NCBI GenBank assembly: GCA_001940845.1
Contig: MSGV01000023.1
Coordinates: 62,001-126,000 of the forward strand
Source of the DNA: Christensenellaceae bacterium Phil7
GTDB taxonomy: Bacteria; Bacillota; Clostridia; Christensenellales; CAG-138
Direction: 5' to 3'
DNA: 64,000 nucleotides
Under the pieces are notes generated by a model. It ran no database searches, was not told the origin of the DNA, and saw only the letters and a program-made list of their open reading frames with translations. This document shows, in pieces, positions 41,326-50,457 of the stretch. The first letter of the stretch is position 1. Each line of letters begins with the position of its first letter. Made by a program: the position numbers and the translations under genes.

Positions 41326-41742
41326 CTAAATGATGTATTTTCTTAGAAAGTCTGGCATAGCGCCGCAGATTCCTTCGCTGCTGACAGATATCACGAGATC
41401 AACATGAAGCGCTTCGCTGAAGCGTGCAAAAAATAAGAACATATCATCGAGCTCTGCAAGAGGATGATGGACAAGCTTCATAAAGCTATTTATATATATT
41501 GCCTGCAGATCAAAATCCTGTGAAGCTATTCCGGATATGAAACCGCTGAACATCTTTGGACCATCAATGAGATATTCAGCAGCATTGATAAAGCGAATGT
41601 TTCTATCTAGCTCATACATATGATCGCAGTCTTTATCTATGAAAACGCAGTGGCCTGGATAGGCTGCACTTTGAGCGTTGGCAAGAGTAATAAGCCTTGC
41701 CGATTTACCAGTACCCCTTTTGCCGTATAATACTTTTATCAA
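41326..41742 (-). CDS. Small P-loop protein of unknown function
   Basis: VLYGKRGTGKSARLITLANAQ Walker A; no other recognised domain. Confidence 0.65.
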   Translation of the reverse strand: MIKVLYGKRGTGKSARLITLANAQSAAYPGHCVFIDKDCDHMYELDRNIRFINAAEYLIDGPKMFSGFISGIASQDFDLQAIYINSFMKLVHHPLAELDDMFLFFARFSEALHVDLVISVSSEGICGAMPDFLRKYII

Positions 41743-41937: not shown

Positions 41938-43755
41938 ATGAAGAGACTTTTTGCGATGCTGCTTGCATTGATCGTGACGCTTAGCGTTGCTGCCTGCAGG
42001 CATACTTCACCAGATGATCCGACCAAAGCGCCGGAGCCAACACCGATACCCGGTTCTATGAATACGGAGTCACCGAGTGCAGAACCGACTCAGTCCGCGA
42101 GTGCTGCTGATATAGAATTCGCGGAAATGGATAAAAAGCTTTTTGTAAGCAGCGTCATTCGAGACGGACTTACATATCATCAGTATGTGAAGGATCCGGC
42201 ATCCTTCGGTATTGATGAGGCCGAGGTTGAACGCGGCTGGGGAGATGAAAGCTATGCCGCATATCTCAATGGCGTTGATGAGGATAAAAAGCTTTTGAAT
42301 GATCTGAACTCGATCGATTATGCATCGCTTTCGGATTACAATAAGCTTGCGTATGATAACATAAAGCTTATTCTTGAACAATCATTGCAGATGGGAGATA
42401 CTTATTATTATGAAGAACCATTGCTTCCGCTCAATGGTATTCATAGCATGCTTCCTCTCATGCTAACTCTGTATGAGATCAATGGTAAGCAGGATGTTGA
42501 TAACTACCTGACCTTGCTTGAAGATTCTGCAAGATATCTTGGACAGATAGAACAATTCGAAATTGAAAAGGCGAATAAGGGTCTGTTTATGACCGAAAAT
42601 GCGCTGGATCAGGTGCTCGAAACCTGCAATAAGTACGTCAAAGAGGGGAAGAATTTTTTCCTGATAGAATTTTTCGAGAAAACAATCGGTGAGAATGAGC
42701 TTGGCATCAGCAATGAGGATAAGCAGGCCTATCTCAGCCGTAACGAAAAATATATCATTGATGAACTGCTGCCGGCTTATGAGAAGTTGGCAAATACCCT
42801 TGACTCCTTGCGTAGCAAATGTATGGAGTTTTCGGGTGCAGTGAATCGAGGAGAGGATGCACTCAAATGGTATAAGTATGATGTTCAGCAAAGCGGAGCC
42901 TGCTTCTATGATATCAGCGAGATCGAAAAGCGGCTTAAGAATCTGTGCGAATCCACATATGTTGATATGATAGGCATCATGCAGAACAATCCGAACATAT
43001 ATAATCATTATTTTGACAGCATAACATCCGGCAATGCGGAAAGCGATGTGGAATATCTCGAATCCTTGATAACCGATATATATCCTTCTCTTCAGGAGCA
43101 GGAGATAGATTTTCTGACGGTACCTGAAGCTGTTGCAGATGATTTCAGCCCTGCTGCATATCTGATTTCGGCATTCGATGATCCATCAAGGAACGTTGTT
43201 ATGTTTAATCCTTCTGCGGATACATCGACGCTTTTATTCACTCTTGCCCATGAGTGCTTCCCGGGGCATCTTTACCAGACTCAGTATTTCCGCCAGCTGG
43301 AGGGGCTTTCCCTCAGCCAGCAGCTTATCGCTCCAACGGGCTATACAGAGGGCTGGGCGGTATTCTCGGAGGTATTTATTGCGGATTACGCATCTGATTA
43401 TGATGCAAAGACCTGTAAAGTAAAGCAGCTTGAGAGCACCCTTTTCAACGTTCTGATACCGGCTTATGTCAGCCTGAAGATCAATATGGATGGCTGGACA
43501 GACGATCAGGTAGGAGCGTACCTGGATACCTATAGCATCAATCAGGATGGTTATAGGGATGTTTTATACGAGTATGCGGTGGATATGCCAACATATTTCT
43601 TCAACTATGCGCTGGGTTATATGAATACCAAGCTGATCTATGACGGAGTTAATCCAAATGGAAATGCGGAAAACCTGGAATTCTTCACGGAATATCTTAA
43701 TTATGGTCCGTGCGCATTCAATATTTTGTTTGATAAGTTCAATATAAGTTTCTGA
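41938..43755 (+). CDS. DUF885 family metallopeptidase-like lipoprotein
   Basis: Lipobox VAAC; TLAHECFPGHLYQTQYFRQL (HExxxGH-type), GYTEGWAVFSE. Confidence 0.9.
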   Translation: MKRLFAMLLALIVTLSVAACRHTSPDDPTKAPEPTPIPGSMNTESPSAEPTQSASAADIEFAEMDKKLFVSSVIRDGLTYHQYVKDPASFGIDEAEVERGWGDESYAAYLNGVDEDKKLLNDLNSIDYASLSDYNKLAYDNIKLILEQSLQMGDTYYYEEPLLPLNGIHSMLPLMLTLYEINGKQDVDNYLTLLEDSARYLGQIEQFEIEKANKGLFMTENALDQVLETCNKYVKEGKNFFLIEFFEKTIGENELGISNEDKQAYLSRNEKYIIDELLPAYEKLANTLDSLRSKCMEFSGAVNRGEDALKWYKYDVQQSGACFYDISEIEKRLKNLCESTYVDMIGIMQNNPNIYNHYFDSITSGNAESDVEYLESLITDIYPSLQEQEIDFLTVPEAVADDFSPAAYLISAFDDPSRNVVMFNPSADTSTLLFTLAHECFPGHLYQTQYFRQLEGLSLSQQLIAPTGYTEGWAVFSEVFIADYASDYDAKTCKVKQLESTLFNVLIPAYVSLKINMDGWTDDQVGAYLDTYSINQDGYRDVLYEYAVDMPTYFFNYALGYMNTKLIYDGVNPNGNAENLEFFTEYLNYGPCAFNILFDKFNISF

Positions 43756-43762
43756 GGATTGT

Positions 43763-43788
43763 TGCCGGAGCAGTTTCCTGCTCCGGCA
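43763..43788 (+). terminator. Strong hairpin
   Basis: TGCCGGAGCAGtttcCTGCTCCGGCA, 11-bp perfect stem; no T tract. Confidence 0.6.
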
Positions 43789-43805: not shown

Positions 43806-45251
43806 ATGACGTATAAAAACAAGAGGACGACTATGCGATCCGTTAATCAAAAGCGTAAGAGAATAAGCATATATTTCAAGTACTTTTGCGATGAACAGCG
43901 CGAAAGTATCTTGCGCACACTAAAAAGACATATAATAAACCGTGGAGCAACGCTGGCATGCGTATTCTGTGATAGTATCAATGCTCGGGGAGTTGAATTG
44001 GATCGGCTAATGCAGTGCGTGATGTCCGGCGCTGTTGAAGCAATACTTGTGCCGGATCTTTGTATGCTCGGATCGGACAGGCTGTTGGTTGAAAAGAATA
44101 TAGCAATAATCAGGTACATGTGCGTAGAATTATTTATTCTCAACAATGATTTTTCATTCGTGAACTACAGTTTGCTTCGTGCGATAAGGAGCTATAATTC
44201 GCTGGGATCGCAATGGGAAAATGAATATGGAGATCTCTATAAAAAGCCCGTGCATAAGCTTTATGCAGGAAATTTACCCTTTGGTTATTATAGAGGTGAA
44301 AATGGTCAGCCGATAGTTGAGGAAGAGGATGCCGAAATTGTCCGTAAAATATTTGGCATGTGCAGCATGGGCATTGGTGCGAGAGAAATTGCAGAGCGAA
44401 TAGAAGAAGAGGACGGAATAAATATATCTCGAAGTACAGTTCGCTTGATAATTGAGAACAAACGTTATTGCAGCAATGCTCATGGACGAATGGATACTTT
44501 CCAACCATTGGTATCCAATGGATTATGGCTTAGAGCAAACAGTGTTCAGCATAGGCGTTCTTCCAGAGAGAAAATTGGAAGAACCCATTTGCTCGAGTAT
44601 ATAACCGTCGCCGGAAGTCGTATCATTCTGGAGCCAAGTGTTTCGATGATACTTCGTGATTGTGGAAATGCTTACTCATGCTGGCTTACCGAAGGCAGGT
44701 TCGAAGCAAATGCCTGCATAGTAGATACCGCCGTGGTGGATATTGTGTCGCATATGCTGGAAAGTGATGGACAGAAATTGCGTGATGAGGTCAAGTCGTA
44801 TAAGACTGAGCAAAGGGCTGAAATGCTCGAAACTATGAAAGAGCTTGAGCGCAGCGGTTTGATAACCGAAACGGATGCAAAAATTGCTTTGGGTAAATTG
44901 AATATCGAGGAGCTTGCAAAATTTGAATCTCTAAGGCTTCGGATTCGCGAAAACAGGCAGCGTTATGTGCGCGCAAAATTGGATTATCTATTGTTTGGCA
45001 TGGACGATGATGAAATAGACGATTACTTTGATCATATGTTTTTGTTTAAGGATCTCGGCTTGCTGGAAAAACAGTACTATATAGACCTGCTGGTTAGAAA
45101 GGTAATAATCGCAGACAGGAGCATAAAATTGCAATTCATCAACGGAAAGGTTATCCGTAAAAATTTTGAAAGGAGAATCCTTTATAGACAACTTGCTGGC
45201 AGTAAATGTCGGTGGGCGGTTGATATTGATGAAAATTATGGCGAAAATTAA
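43806..45251 (+). CDS. Large serine recombinase-like protein with degenerate active site
   Basis: Recombinase-domain core NLPFGYYRGENGQPIVEEEDAEIVRKIFGMCSMGIGAREIAERIEEEDGINISRSTVRLIIENKRYC; resolvase-like N-terminus ISIYFKYFCDEQRES. Confidence 0.8.
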   Translation: MTYKNKRTTMRSVNQKRKRISIYFKYFCDEQRESILRTLKRHIINRGATLACVFCDSINARGVELDRLMQCVMSGAVEAILVPDLCMLGSDRLLVEKNIAIIRYMCVELFILNNDFSFVNYSLLRAIRSYNSLGSQWENEYGDLYKKPVHKLYAGNLPFGYYRGENGQPIVEEEDAEIVRKIFGMCSMGIGAREIAERIEEEDGINISRSTVRLIIENKRYCSNAHGRMDTFQPLVSNGLWLRANSVQHRRSSREKIGRTHLLEYITVAGSRIILEPSVSMILRDCGNAYSCWLTEGRFEANACIVDTAVVDIVSHMLESDGQKLRDEVKSYKTEQRAEMLETMKELERSGLITETDAKIALGKLNIEELAKFESLRLRIRENRQRYVRAKLDYLLFGMDDDEIDDYFDHMFLFKDLGLLEKQYYIDLLVRKVIIADRSIKLQFINGKVIRKNFERRILYRQLAGSKCRWAVDIDENYGEN

Positions 45252-45726
45252 AAAAGGAAAATCAGCGTACGATGCTGCGCTCGATTATCTTACTCCAAAG
45301 GACAGGACGCAGAGGGAAATTGAAATATACTTAGATGGAGAGAATTATTCTGAGATTGAAATAATAAATACGGTAGAACGATTGAAGAATAGCGGATTAA
45401 TTGATGATGCACGCTATGCAGAAAATTTTATTGAATCGCGTTTGAATACCAAGCCTGTCAGTAAGCGCAGGCTTATGCAGCAGCTTGAGGAGCATTTTAT
45501 CGGGCAGGATATCGTAGCTGATGCATTGACAAGGATCGACGAGGGGATGGAGTACGATAATGCCAGAAGGGTTGCGGATAAATTCTATCGTCAATTCTCT
45601 AAGTTGGAGGAGGAAGAACGGCTTAAACGTGTGGGTTTAAGACTTAGTGCAAGAGGATATGATTATGATTGCATTAAGCAGATAATCGGCATGCTGCGGG
45701 AGCGGGGAGAATTGGACAATGATTGA
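45229..45726 (+). CDS. recX: Regulatory protein RecX
   Basis: AYDAALDYLTPKDRTQREIEIYL, RLKNSGLIDDARYAENFIESRL, KPVSKRRLMQQLEE; overlaps the recombinase-like gene. Confidence 0.9.
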   Translation: MKIMAKIKKGKSAYDAALDYLTPKDRTQREIEIYLDGENYSEIEIINTVERLKNSGLIDDARYAENFIESRLNTKPVSKRRLMQQLEEHFIGQDIVADALTRIDEGMEYDNARRVADKFYRQFSKLEEEERLKRVGLRLSARGYDYDCIKQIIGMLRERGELDND

Positions 45727-46477
45727 TATAGCGGTTATTGAGCATATTACGGAGGTGGATTCTACAAATACTGAGCTGAAACGCAGGATCAGCTTGATGA
45801 CAGAAATGCCGGAATATATGGCCATCACTGCGGATAAGCAGAGTTCTGGGCATGGGCGAATTGGCAGAGTTTGGTCAAATACCGATGGAGCACTCCTTAT
45901 GAGCGTGGCCTTACCGACGAATGGCTTGAGCGGAAAGGAACTCCCAATGCTGAATTATGCAGCTGCACTTGCGGTATTTGATTCGATTTCCGAACTGGAT
46001 AGCATTGGAAATATTGTAAGCATCGAAATAAAATGGCCAAATGACATACTGCTCAATGGAAAGAAGGTATGCGGGATCCTCTCAGAGCTTGTCAAAAATG
46101 CTATTGGTGAGATATATGCGGTCATAGGAATTGGAATAAATGTCAATGCTGATGTGCTCCCGGACGAACTGCTGCAATCGGCCTCTTCTTTGAAGGCATC
46201 CTTTGGATACTCTATAGAGCTGGAATCGTTTAAGAAGGTACTGCTGAAAATGCTGTTGCAGCGAACGAAAATTCTCATAAGTGGAGGCAGGGAGATGCTG
46301 CTGCGTGAATATAAAAAAAGATGCATAACGTTGAATAAAAGAATCATTGTGCATCCGAATTTTGGCAAGAGCTATGAGGCTTTTGCAGTGGATTTGGATA
46401 TGTATGGCAGGCTTTTGATAAAAAATGTTGAGGATGAATTGATCCTTCTTGATTCTGCCGATGTATCAATAAGGTGA
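45719..46477 (+). CDS. birA: Biotin-[acetyl-CoA-carboxylase] ligase, without N-terminal HTH
   Basis: EVDSTNTELK, ADKQSSGHGRIGRVWSNTDGALLMSV, IKWPNDILLNGKKVCGILSE, IGIGINVN. Confidence 0.92.
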   Translation: MIDIAVIEHITEVDSTNTELKRRISLMTEMPEYMAITADKQSSGHGRIGRVWSNTDGALLMSVALPTNGLSGKELPMLNYAAALAVFDSISELDSIGNIVSIEIKWPNDILLNGKKVCGILSELVKNAIGEIYAVIGIGINVNADVLPDELLQSASSLKASFGYSIELESFKKVLLKMLLQRTKILISGGREMLLREYKKRCITLNKRIIVHPNFGKSYEAFAVDLDMYGRLLIKNVEDELILLDSADVSIR

Positions 46478-46500
46478 AGTATGATGAAGAAAGGGCGGAT

Positions 46501-47970
46501 ATGGAACCAATTGTTGGTAATGCACTAAGCAGGGAGATAGACCGCTGCCTGATGGATGAAGTCGGGATACCTGGAATTGTTTTGATGGAGAATGCTGCAT
46601 TTTCCGTAGCAAATGCTGTGATTAATTCTGGCCATCGGGGAAGGATTATTATAATTATCGGCGGCAGGAATAATGGCGGGGATGGTCTTGCAGTAATGCG
46701 CATACTCAAACTTGCCGGCTTTGAATCTATAGGGCTGCTTTGCTGCGATGAAATGAGATTTTCGGGAGATGCACTGATAAATTATAGGATAGTGCAAAAT
46801 ATGCGGCTGCCGCTGACGCATGATATGGGCGTTATGAAGGATGCGGCTATCATTGTGGATGCACTATTTGGAACAGGGCTTACAAGGGAAATAACGGGCA
46901 TTGCTCGTAATATTGTTGAATATGCAAATTCTTGTCGGGCGTACCGTATTGCGATCGATATTCCATCCGGGATAAACGGGGATACCGGCGAAATAATGGG
47001 TACTGTATTCCATGCAGATGAAACGATCACCGTGCAGTATATTAAACGCGGCCTGCTTTTGACAAAGGAACGCGAAGCTGTGGGAAAGATCAGCATATGC
47101 CGAATAGGCGAAATGCCTGAATCATGGATACAAAAGCTGGGCAAAGAGGAATTGATCGATAAAGCGTTTGTAGCTTCGCTACTTCCCGATAGGCGGCTTG
47201 TATGCAATAAAGGAGACTATGGCAGAAGCCTTATCATTGCAGGCAGCAGCGGAATGAGCGGAGCGGCAGTCATGGCTGCATCTGCGGCACTAAGAGCGGG
47301 GTCAGGTCTGGTAAATGCATATGTCCCGAAAGGAACAGCGGATGCCTTTTGCGTGCGACCCGAGATAATGGTAAATACTGATGTGGGTATAATGCAGCTT
47401 GAGACCTTGATTGCGAAGTCTTCTGCAATAGGTATAGGCTGTGGCAGCGGGAATGATCCATTTCTCAAGGAGAAGCTGCTTGCAGTGTTGAATAGTAAAA
47501 AGCCCTGCGTCATAGATGCTGATGCGCTCAATGGGTTGGGGGAGGATGGCTCTGCATTGCTGCATGAAAACTGTGTTTTGACCCCCCATCCAGGTGAGAT
47601 GTCAAGACTGCTGGGCATAAGCGTTGCAGAGGTAGTAGGTAATCCGGTTGATACAGCAAGAAATTATGCGGCAGAGCATGATTGTACGTTGCTTCTCAAA
47701 TCCTCGGTTTCCGTAATCGCGTCTCCTAAAGGCTGTATTCGCTATAATACAAGCGGAAATCCGGGGCTCGCAAAGGGCGGGAGCGGTGATGTGCTTACAG
47801 GAATAATAACTGCTTTGCTTGCTCAGGGGCTGAAGCCATTTGATGCGGCGAGCGTTGGTGCTTTTTTGCTGGGCTCATCGGCAAATAAAGCGTTGGATCT
47901 GTTGAAAAACAGAACTCTTGCTGCGGGAGATGTGATAGAGGCCGTCTCTTTGGCAGTAATTGATGATTAA
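46501..47970 (+). CDS. nnr: Bifunctional NAD(P)H-hydrate epimerase / ADP-dependent dehydratase
   Basis: LMENAAFSVANAV, GRNNGGDGLAVMR, DIPSGINGDTGE; LTPHPGEMSRLLG, GNPGLAKGGSGDVLTGIITALLAQG. Confidence 0.93.
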   Translation: MEPIVGNALSREIDRCLMDEVGIPGIVLMENAAFSVANAVINSGHRGRIIIIIGGRNNGGDGLAVMRILKLAGFESIGLLCCDEMRFSGDALINYRIVQNMRLPLTHDMGVMKDAAIIVDALFGTGLTREITGIARNIVEYANSCRAYRIAIDIPSGINGDTGEIMGTVFHADETITVQYIKRGLLLTKEREAVGKISICRIGEMPESWIQKLGKEELIDKAFVASLLPDRRLVCNKGDYGRSLIIAGSSGMSGAAVMAASAALRAGSGLVNAYVPKGTADAFCVRPEIMVNTDVGIMQLETLIAKSSAIGIGCGSGNDPFLKEKLLAVLNSKKPCVIDADALNGLGEDGSALLHENCVLTPHPGEMSRLLGISVAEVVGNPVDTARNYAAEHDCTLLLKSSVSVIASPKGCIRYNTSGNPGLAKGGSGDVLTGIITALLAQGLKPFDAASVGAFLLGSSANKALDLLKNRTLAAGDVIEAVSLAVIDD

Positions 47971-48006
47971 TGCTTTGACTAATAGTATATATGGAGGAAA
48001 TTAGTG

Positions 48007-49170
48007 ATGAAAGTTTTTAAAAATGGTAATGTGATCCCGGTTGCAGGTGAAGCATTTATTGGTGATATCGCTGTGGATAACGGCAAAATAGCTGCGATAG
48101 GTGCAAATCTTGAATATCCTGAGGCTGAATATATCAACTTATCAGGCTGCACATTGATCCCCGGAATTATAGATGCTCATTGCCACATAGGCATGTTTGA
48201 GGATGGTATGGGATTTGAGGGTGATGATGGAAATGAGCGTTCGAATCCCGTCACACCTGAGCTTCGTGCGATAGATGCAATAAATCCCTATGATAAATGC
48301 TTTAAAGAGGCCTGTATGGGAGGTGTGACCTCCGTTGTAACAGGTCCCGGAAGTGCAAATGTTATCGGAGGCCAATTCGTTGCGATGAAGACAGCCGGAG
48401 GCAGAGTGGAGGACATGGTGATCCGTGAGCCGATCGCGATGAAGGCGGCATTCGGTGAAAATCCAAAGCGGGTATATTCTGGAAGCAAGACCTTCTATAC
48501 CCGTATGTCCATTGCATCGACTTTGAGGAAAACGATTATTGAGACTTTGGACTACGATAGAAAGCTGAAGGAAGCGGGAGAGGATGAGAGCAAAAGACCG
48601 CCCTATAATTTCAAGCTTGAATCCATGCTTCCTGTCGTTCGCCGGGAGCTGCCGCTTAAGATCCATGCGCATCGCGCTGATGATATCCTGACGGCGATAC
48701 GAATTGCAAAGGAATTTGATCTGCGGATTACGTTGGATCATTTCACAGAGGGCTATTTGATAATCAACCGCATTAAGGATGACCTGCGGCAGTTGGGCGC
48801 CGGTGTTATAATAGGTCCATTGCTTTCAGATAGAAGCAAGATTGAACTTCGCAATCTGAGCATGATCGCACCCAGAACCCTTTATGAGAATGGAATCAAG
48901 TTTGCTATGATGACCGATCATCCTGTAATTCCGGAGCAGTATCTGTCGGTATGTGCTGCATTGGCAGTTCGCGAGGGGCTTCCGGAAAAGGCTGCGCTTG
49001 AATCCATAACGATAAATGCAGCAGAGATAGTTGGCATTGCAGATAGGGTGGGATCTCTTGAGGTCGGAAAGGATGCGGATATTGCGGTATTCTATGGGCA
49101 TCCATTTGATTTCCGGACAAGGTGTGTTATGACCATCGTAAACGGTGAAATCGTATTTGATGAGCTATAA
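48007..49170 (+). CDS. Amidohydrolase family protein
   Basis: LIPGIIDAHCHIGMFEDGMGFEGDDGNE, GGVTSVVTGPGSANVIGGQ, MMTDHPVIPEQY, VGSLEVGKDADIAVF. Confidence 0.9.
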   Translation: MKVFKNGNVIPVAGEAFIGDIAVDNGKIAAIGANLEYPEAEYINLSGCTLIPGIIDAHCHIGMFEDGMGFEGDDGNERSNPVTPELRAIDAINPYDKCFKEACMGGVTSVVTGPGSANVIGGQFVAMKTAGGRVEDMVIREPIAMKAAFGENPKRVYSGSKTFYTRMSIASTLRKTIIETLDYDRKLKEAGEDESKRPPYNFKLESMLPVVRRELPLKIHAHRADDILTAIRIAKEFDLRITLDHFTEGYLIINRIKDDLRQLGAGVIIGPLLSDRSKIELRNLSMIAPRTLYENGIKFAMMTDHPVIPEQYLSVCAALAVREGLPEKAALESITINAAEIVGIADRVGSLEVGKDADIAVFYGHPFDFRTRCVMTIVNGEIVFDEL

Positions 49171-49763
49171 TGGACAGGTTTATTGAGAATTGTGGTACTA
49201 TGGCGGAGCTCAAGAACGAGCTTCGCCGTGCCCTTAGAAAGCAGCGCAGGGAACAGGATGAGCTCGCAGCAAGAGCCGGATCAGCGGCTGTGTGCGAGAG
49301 GGTTATTGCCCTGCCAGAATATCCTGGCGCAGAGCTTATCCTTGCATATATGGCAGCCAAGGGAGAGGTGGACGTTTCATACATAGTTGATGATGCAATG
49401 AAACGGCAAAAAAAGATTGCGTTCCCGCTATGCGCAGAAAATGGCGGGCTAAGGCTTATGGTACCGAATACGACCGATAGTTTCAAGCTGGGTGCATATG
49501 GCATAATGGAACCCGATATTGATGACTCGGTTGAAGTCGATGCCTCCGAGCTGGATTTGATAATAGTTCCGGCAGTGGCGTATATGCGCGATTGTTCAAG
49601 GCTGGGACAAGGTGGCGGATATTACGATCGGCTGCTTGTGAAAACTTCTGCATTTACGGTTGGAGTGGGGTATGATTTTCAATTGATCGATTGGCTTCCT
49701 GTTGAGCCGCATGATAGGCCGCTGAACTGCGTTGCTTTACCAAGTGAATTGATACGCAGATAA
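49170..49763 (+). CDS. 5-formyltetrahydrofolate cyclo-ligase
   Basis: KNELRRALRKQRREQ, YMAAKGEVDVSYIVDDAM, DCSRLGQGGGYYDRLL. Confidence 0.92.
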   Translation: MDRFIENCGTMAELKNELRRALRKQRREQDELAARAGSAAVCERVIALPEYPGAELILAYMAAKGEVDVSYIVDDAMKRQKKIAFPLCAENGGLRLMVPNTTDSFKLGAYGIMEPDIDDSVEVDASELDLIIVPAVAYMRDCSRLGQGGGYYDRLLVKTSAFTVGVGYDFQLIDWLPVEPHDRPLNCVALPSELIRR

Positions 49764-49875
49764 ATAATATACGAACAAAATGAACATATGCGCTTGCAAT
49801 ATCATGCTATGCGGTGTTAAAATTAATATGAGCTTATATGAGGCTGACGGATCACATTTTAAGGAGTAATATAGT

Positions 49876-50457
49876 TTGCGTATAATTGCAGGTAAAGCAG
49901 GCGGCAGGAGATTTGAAGCACCGATCGGAAGAAATACGCGCCCGACTCTCGATAGAGTAAAGGAAGCAATGTTTGGAATGATCCAATTCGATATAGAGGG
50001 TCGAAGGGTGCTTGATCTTTTCGCCGGGAGCGGAGGCTTGGGTTTAGAGGCAATATCTCGCGGAGCGGAATATGCTGTATTTTGCGATATCGATAGAAAT
50101 GCAGCAAAGCTGATCGAATCCAATATCCGTACACTTTGCTTTGATAAGCAATGCGAAGTTTTTTCGCTTGATTGCTTCTCGCTCATATCGCAGCTTGGCT
50201 TACGGGAAGATAAATTTTCACTCGTATTGCTGGATCCGCCGTATAATGCCGGATTTCTTGAAAAGGTCTTGAACCGCCTCGTGAACTTGAAGCTTCTATG
50301 CAATGGATGCATCATACTGGCGGAGCATTCCTGGAAGCAGTCCATTGATTTCGATTCGTTGGATGATGGAGTAAAAGCGGTATTAGAATTTCGAGAGCCC
50401 AGGAAATATGGAGATACCGGGGTAACATACATAAGATTTAGTGGAGATCGGGAATGA
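49876..50457 (+). CDS. rsmD: 16S rRNA (guanine(966)-N(2))-methyltransferase RsmD
   Basis: RIIAGKAGGRRFEAPIGRNTRPTLDRVKEAMFGM, VLDLFAGSGGLGLEAISRGA, LLDPPYNAG; TTG start with AAGGAG. Confidence 0.95.
   Translation: MRIIAGKAGGRRFEAPIGRNTRPTLDRVKEAMFGMIQFDIEGRRVLDLFAGSGGLGLEAISRGAEYAVFCDIDRNAAKLIESNIRTLCFDKQCEVFSLDCFSLISQLGLREDKFSLVLLDPPYNAGFLEKVLNRLVNLKLLCNGCIILAEHSWKQSIDFDSLDDGVKAVLEFREPRKYGDTGVTYIRFSGDRE

Follow-up and report, generated by a model that had tools for sequence, protein, structure and literature searches.

A gene in the window (the whole 64,000-nucleotide stretch of DNA analysed here) probably encodes an exapted, vertically inherited large serine recombinase, referred to below as the dead integrase, which no longer performs strand exchange and is most likely a DNA-binding regulator or architectural protein. 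The cutting chemistry has been lost, yet the gene is intact and single-copy in 20 genomes, and an old selfish enzyme therefore appears to have become a resident host protein. Full-length members of the family were found, one copy in each genome, in eight genomes of the genus of the window (g1), in one of a second genus (g11) and in 11 of a third (g40); among the sampled genomes they are confined to these three genera, which belong to one family of rumen and gut Clostridia. Large serine recombinases combine a Resolvase domain (PF00239), a Recombinase domain (PF07508) and a zinc ribbon (PF13408), examples being the Listeria LI integrase (4KIS), phiC31, Bxb1 and TP901-1, and host-adopted serine recombinases are known mainly where catalysis itself has been adopted, as in skin excision and phase inversion.

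Loss of the active site

The reading frame, which the original prediction had described as intact, was confirmed as open (Table 1). ATG 43833 is a likelier start codon than 43806 because AGAGGA sits just upstream of it. Only the Recombinase domain of the window protein was recognized by Pfam (PF07508; E = 1.8e-6, residues 173-246, 28.6 bits against a cut-off of 21.1), and neither PF00239 Resolvase nor the PF13408 zinc ribbon was matched. A weak similarity to CcrA, below the cut-off, was obtained with NCBIfam, and PHROGs places the protein with the integrase family phrog_95.

Table 1. Positions of the dead-integrase gene, its parts and its neighbours in the window
Feature	Position	Strand	Basis
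DUF885 gene; neighbour common to the dead-integrase genes of G004 (g1), G020 (g11) and g40	41938..43755	+	Pfam, loci compared
GC-rich hairpin GCCGGAGCA-GTTTCC-TGCTCCGGC, no T-run, between DUF885 and the dead-integrase gene	43764..43787	+	sequence
Longest ORF of the dead large-serine-recombinase-like gene, 481 aa	43806..45251	+	ORF and Pfam
Coding region from the likelier start, 472 aa, AGAGGA before ATG	43833..45251	+	sequence
Former YxRxS motif: K25 in the Arg8 column, F27 in the nucleophilic Ser10 column	43878..43886	+	alignment
Former DRLSRN motif, now VPDLCMLGSD: M87 in the Arg68 column, S90 in the Arg71 column	44049..44078	+	alignment
PF07508 Recombinase domain (residues 173-246), which probably binds DNA	44322..44543	+	Pfam
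Remains of the zinc ribbon, its Cys set missing, residues about 247-296	44544..44693	+	alignment
Predicted long helices, coiled-coil region, residues 297-397	44694..44996	+	AlphaFold model
recX, overlapping the 3' end of the dead-integrase gene	45229..45726	+	ORF and Pfam

The active site was analysed by aligning the window protein and 19 relatives with 14 ordinary large serine recombinases, which came from its own genome and related genomes; resolvase numbering is used for the columns. Arg8, Ser10, Arg45, Arg68 and Arg71 are present in all 14 ordinary proteins; the window protein has Lys25, Phe27, Gly, Met87 and Ser90 at these positions. The replacements that had been read from the sequence, Ser to Phe and Arg to Lys in YxRxS and the loss of both Arg residues in VPDLCMLGSD, were thus borne out, and Phe, Met and Ser were found in place of a Ser and a DRxxR motif in register. 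No member of the family retains Arg45, Arg68 or Arg71 (0/20, against 14/14 in the ordinary proteins), and Ser10 is retained in four of the 18 readable rows (G001, G006, G007 and G008). Apart from Arg8, the catalytic columns are no more conserved within the family than typical N-domain columns, and constraint on the chemistry is therefore gone. Structural positions near the lost catalytic columns remain conserved: the non-catalytic positions LGxDxY..LEN.LF..RNG are nearly invariant in the N-domain of the g40 members. Asp91, within VPDLCMLGSD, is invariant across a 12-sequence alignment.

The zinc ribbon, which had been described as mostly gone, retains two Cys residues in the window protein compared with 4-5 in the ordinary proteins. 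The corresponding region contains 0-3 Cys across the family, so that the Cys set is gone throughout, and no member is matched by PF13408. In Pfam searches PF00239 matched none of the 20 members at E <= 0.01 and PF07508 matched 18. By ancestry the family belongs to the large serine recombinases. As a functioning large serine recombinase the window protein fails on four tested features, and the reading of its active site as dead is supported.

That the protein is still a recombinase and uses other residues is extremely improbable. Ser10 is in register in the four members named above; however, the three Arg columns, vacated in every member, are variable and have acquired no fixed substitute. Furthermore, a single S10A substitution abolishes the activity of CD1231, the skin recombinase of C. 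difficile (PMC5025042), which supports inactivity of the dead integrase wherever its Ser is missing.

Predicted structure

In Foldseek searches of the PDB, serine integrases ranked best for the AlphaFold models of both the window protein, which was predicted with 12 sequences at a moderate pLDDT of just 64.5, and a g40 relative (pLDDT 88.7, pTM 0.85). The top matches of the g40 model are full-length serine integrase-att complexes, with E values to 5.6e-11. Global TM-scores are low (about 0.2), which is attributed to a different arrangement of the domains; the N-domain alone superposes on the catalytic domain of TP901-1 with an r.m.s.d. of 2.5 Å over 100 columns.

Distribution and phylogeny

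The family was searched for with the window protein in 41 related genomes and with profiles in 103 genomes of the same family and then in 396 genomes of the order, the sampled genomes being MAG-based. The profile for the 103 genomes was built from seven members and the 13 others were left out of building; 12 of these 13 scored 131-182 bits, and G096 scored 96.5 bits over part of its length, the best non-member scoring 94.6. The order-wide profile held all 20 members and hence favours members; with this profile none of the ten members sampled fell below 380 bits, and the highest score after theirs was 131. The 20 members form a single clade in the tree, with a support of 100/100 and long branches, and the identity between genera is about 20%. 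A search for orthologues with the same substitutions had been suggested, and both this clade and the uniform loss of the three Arg residues support the family.

Those g40 records that carry a name are MAGs of unclassified Clostridia, the majority of them recovered from the rumen and other ruminant gut sites. No match was obtained when a contig collection was searched with the single window protein; the g40 alignment as the query did match. The profile search detected no family copy in the congeners G002, G005 and G010, in which the gene is lost, unassembled or too diverged. A tblastn search of a phage collection with one relative gave five partial matches at 26-37% identity, of which the annotated ones are integrases or resolvases; a phage origin was not adopted on these five matches.

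Selection on the open reading frame

No member contains an internal stop codon, and the only truncations, in G101 and G107, are cuts at contig ends, so the orthologues are open rather than mostly frameshifted. The ratio dN/dS, which had been suggested as a check, is 0.16 (dN 0.011, dS 0.072) for G007 and G008, the only close pair. In this pair 21 of the 34 changes are synonymous compared with 9.4 expected in simulation (p about 3e-4), and constraint is separately evident for the N-domain (p = 0.009) and for the recombinase domain (p = 0.002), with no significant constraint in the C-terminal part (p = 0.15). This single close pair shows purifying selection on the dead-integrase gene, including its dead catalytic domain. 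The earlier argument that an intact frame speaks against decay is strengthened by these results and by the 20 open orthologues.

The reading of the gene as a decaying pseudogene, kept open by chance or through its overlap with recX, is largely refuted and retains almost no probability. Divergence in the tree is fast and no copy was found in the three congeners mentioned above; however, 20 open copies from three genera form one clade, the ratio of 0.16 is accompanied by significant constraint, and copies other than that of the window do not adjoin recX.

Putative DNA-binding role

A DNA-binding, non-recombining protein is favoured because conservation along the protein is highest in the recombinase domain (mean identity of 0.47 within g40, compared with 0.18-0.41 elsewhere) and a helix region with basic residues, TVK..LRN.RYLG in g40, is kept in it. 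Binding to DNA with no strand exchange, as originally suggested, is plausible, and we infer that the dead integrase most likely binds DNA, dimerizes and has a regulatory role.

In the proposed mechanism, an ancestor of this Clostridia family would have acquired a large serine integrase, which would then have lost its strand-exchange chemistry. Purifying selection would since have maintained it as a host gene, inherited vertically in one copy. The recombinase domain would recognize a DNA site, and the remodelled N-terminal domain and the coiled coil would mediate oligomerization or contact with a partner, giving a dimeric, sequence-specific DNA-binding protein that may act as a transcriptional regulator or a local architectural protein. 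Against this explanation, the neighbourhood of the gene differs between clades, and there is therefore no constant regulon partner; in addition, active integrases gain further DNA contacts from the zinc ribbon and the linker helix, both of which are degenerate in the family. The recombinase region of several members also has a net charge close to zero or negative, divergence between genera is high, and the measure of selection comes from one close pair.

Integrases use their recombinase and coiled-coil regions to bind DNA and one another, and the retention of both regions would also suit a factor that pairs with the active serine integrases of mobile elements or competes for their sites, thereby restricting or steering integration and excision. 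The 11 PF00239 loci found by a scan of the whole genome of the window, all away from the dead-integrase gene, are a further point in favour. Interference of this kind is nevertheless decidedly unlikely. The family is very distant from its ordinary relatives, and genomes that carry the gene still hold up to 11 PF00239 loci. Furthermore, the gene is kept in G102 and G098, whose incomplete assemblies (91% and 70%) yielded no PF00239 protein at E <= 1e-6, a mild argument against its having to work with active integrases.

Comparison with known systems

The dead-integrase family shares with serine integrases, its best structural matches, the domain order, the predicted fold, the Recombinase domain and a long helical coiled coil. 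It differs from them in lacking Arg45, Arg68 and Arg71 (20/20), in most members the Ser, the zinc-ribbon Cys set and a PF00239 match, and in being vertically inherited in the chromosomal backbone. SpoIVCA and CD1231 are likewise large serine recombinases in host use in Firmicutes (PMC5025042); however, these are catalytic and excise an element, whereas the dead-integrase family has neither an intact active site nor a consistent sigK linkage. A parallel in loss of function is MrpR, the master repressor of SPbeta, which has a tyrosine-recombinase fold, has lost recombinase function and is a DNA-binding repressor (PMC10516654). Both are site-specific recombinase folds without catalysis, the repressor role being that of MrpR; MrpR is a tyrosine-type protein in a prophage, whereas the dead-integrase family has a serine-integrase fold and is located among chromosomal genes.

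A literature search of partial coverage found no large serine recombinase family described as catalytically dead; the useful analogue was MrpR. Recombinase domestication as such is already known, and the dead serine-integrase family is a variant of it. The chances are about even that it represents a previously undescribed host family, namely an exapted dead serine integrase that is present in several genera, acts as a non-recombining DNA-binding regulator and is the serine counterpart of MrpR in the chromosomal backbone. If this is true, the DNA-reading and assembly parts of an integrase are useful alone after the chemistry has been lost, natural recombination-free relatives are available for comparison with the integrase tools phiC31 and Bxb1, and the annotation 'recombinase family protein' can conceal resident host proteins.

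Gene neighbourhood

Neighbouring genes without a Pfam test were named by sequence resemblance. The order in g40 and g11 is AlgI-type MBOAT, AlgJ/DHHW-like, DUF885 and dead integrase, and in three g40 genomes (G100, G102 and G103) the start codon of the dead-integrase gene overlaps the DUF885 stop codon by 4 bp; the two genes are therefore probably co-translated. DUF885 is also directly upstream in the window genome and in G004. The gene lies between an amidohydrolase-like gene and miaB-mutS-mutL in G001, G006, G007, G008 and G009, and adjoins a sigK-like gene in G003. Seven g1 genomes (G001, G002, G003, G005, G006, G008 and G010) have DUF885 followed by recX with no dead integrase between them, and much of the run downstream (window 45229-50454) recurs with this order. 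Since DUF885 is common to the three genera, it is likely to be the stable, older neighbour; the linkage to recX, seen only in the window genome, is local and the adjacency incidental. Of the housekeeping operon with recX that had been proposed, the 3' overlap with recX (about 14-23 nt) stands, but the shared neighbour is DUF885, and the recX linkage suggested as a check in orthologues was not seen, the other copies lying away from recX.

The tight linkage to DUF885 in g40 and g11, together with the loss of the zinc ribbon and the conserved non-catalytic N-domain positions of g40, would fit a protein-binding scaffold in which DNA binding is also gone and the remodelled N-domain or the coiled coil works with another protein. 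This alternative is unlikely. The region most conserved is the recombinase domain, DUF885 linkage is missing from six g1 genomes that carry the gene, and the DUF885 protein is probably outside the membrane, because its N-terminus reads as lipoprotein-like, whereas the dead integrase has no such signal. A DNA-binding protein without recombination is still the preferred reading.

Only in G003 and G008 do genes for sigK-like sigma factors lie close to the dead integrase (L030:7533-8222, + strand, and L033:1839-2531, - strand), at about 185 bp and divergent in G003 and at about 2.5 kb in G008. It is very improbable that the family, whether or not it has a function today, is what remains of the recombinase of a skin-type element interrupting sigK: the window genome (G000) and the remaining members in which a sigK-like gene could be located carry it uninterrupted on a different contig. 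The sporulation link was therefore rejected and a skin-element origin not adopted. A defence role was also rejected, PADLOC giving only three weak hits, each in a single member.

In the g40 operon the AlgI-type gene is directly abutted by the gene upstream of it, and no intergenic target in the form of a conserved promoter or palindrome was found there. No terminator was called at the hairpin upstream of the dead-integrase gene in the window. A 138-aa ORF with a TTG start and a Walker A-like GKRGTGKS motif (window 41326-41742, - strand) had no Pfam match and no counterpart in any relative locus retrieved. The base composition of the dead-integrase gene resembles that of the adjoining genes. 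The run at 45229-50454 (+ strand) comprises recX, a biotin/lipoate ligase (birA-type), nnr, an amidohydrolase, 5-FTHF cyclo-ligase and an rsmD-like gene. Elsewhere in the genome of the window, two ordinary serine recombinase genes are adjacent to each other at G000:C1:80591-82353 (loci L001 and L002).
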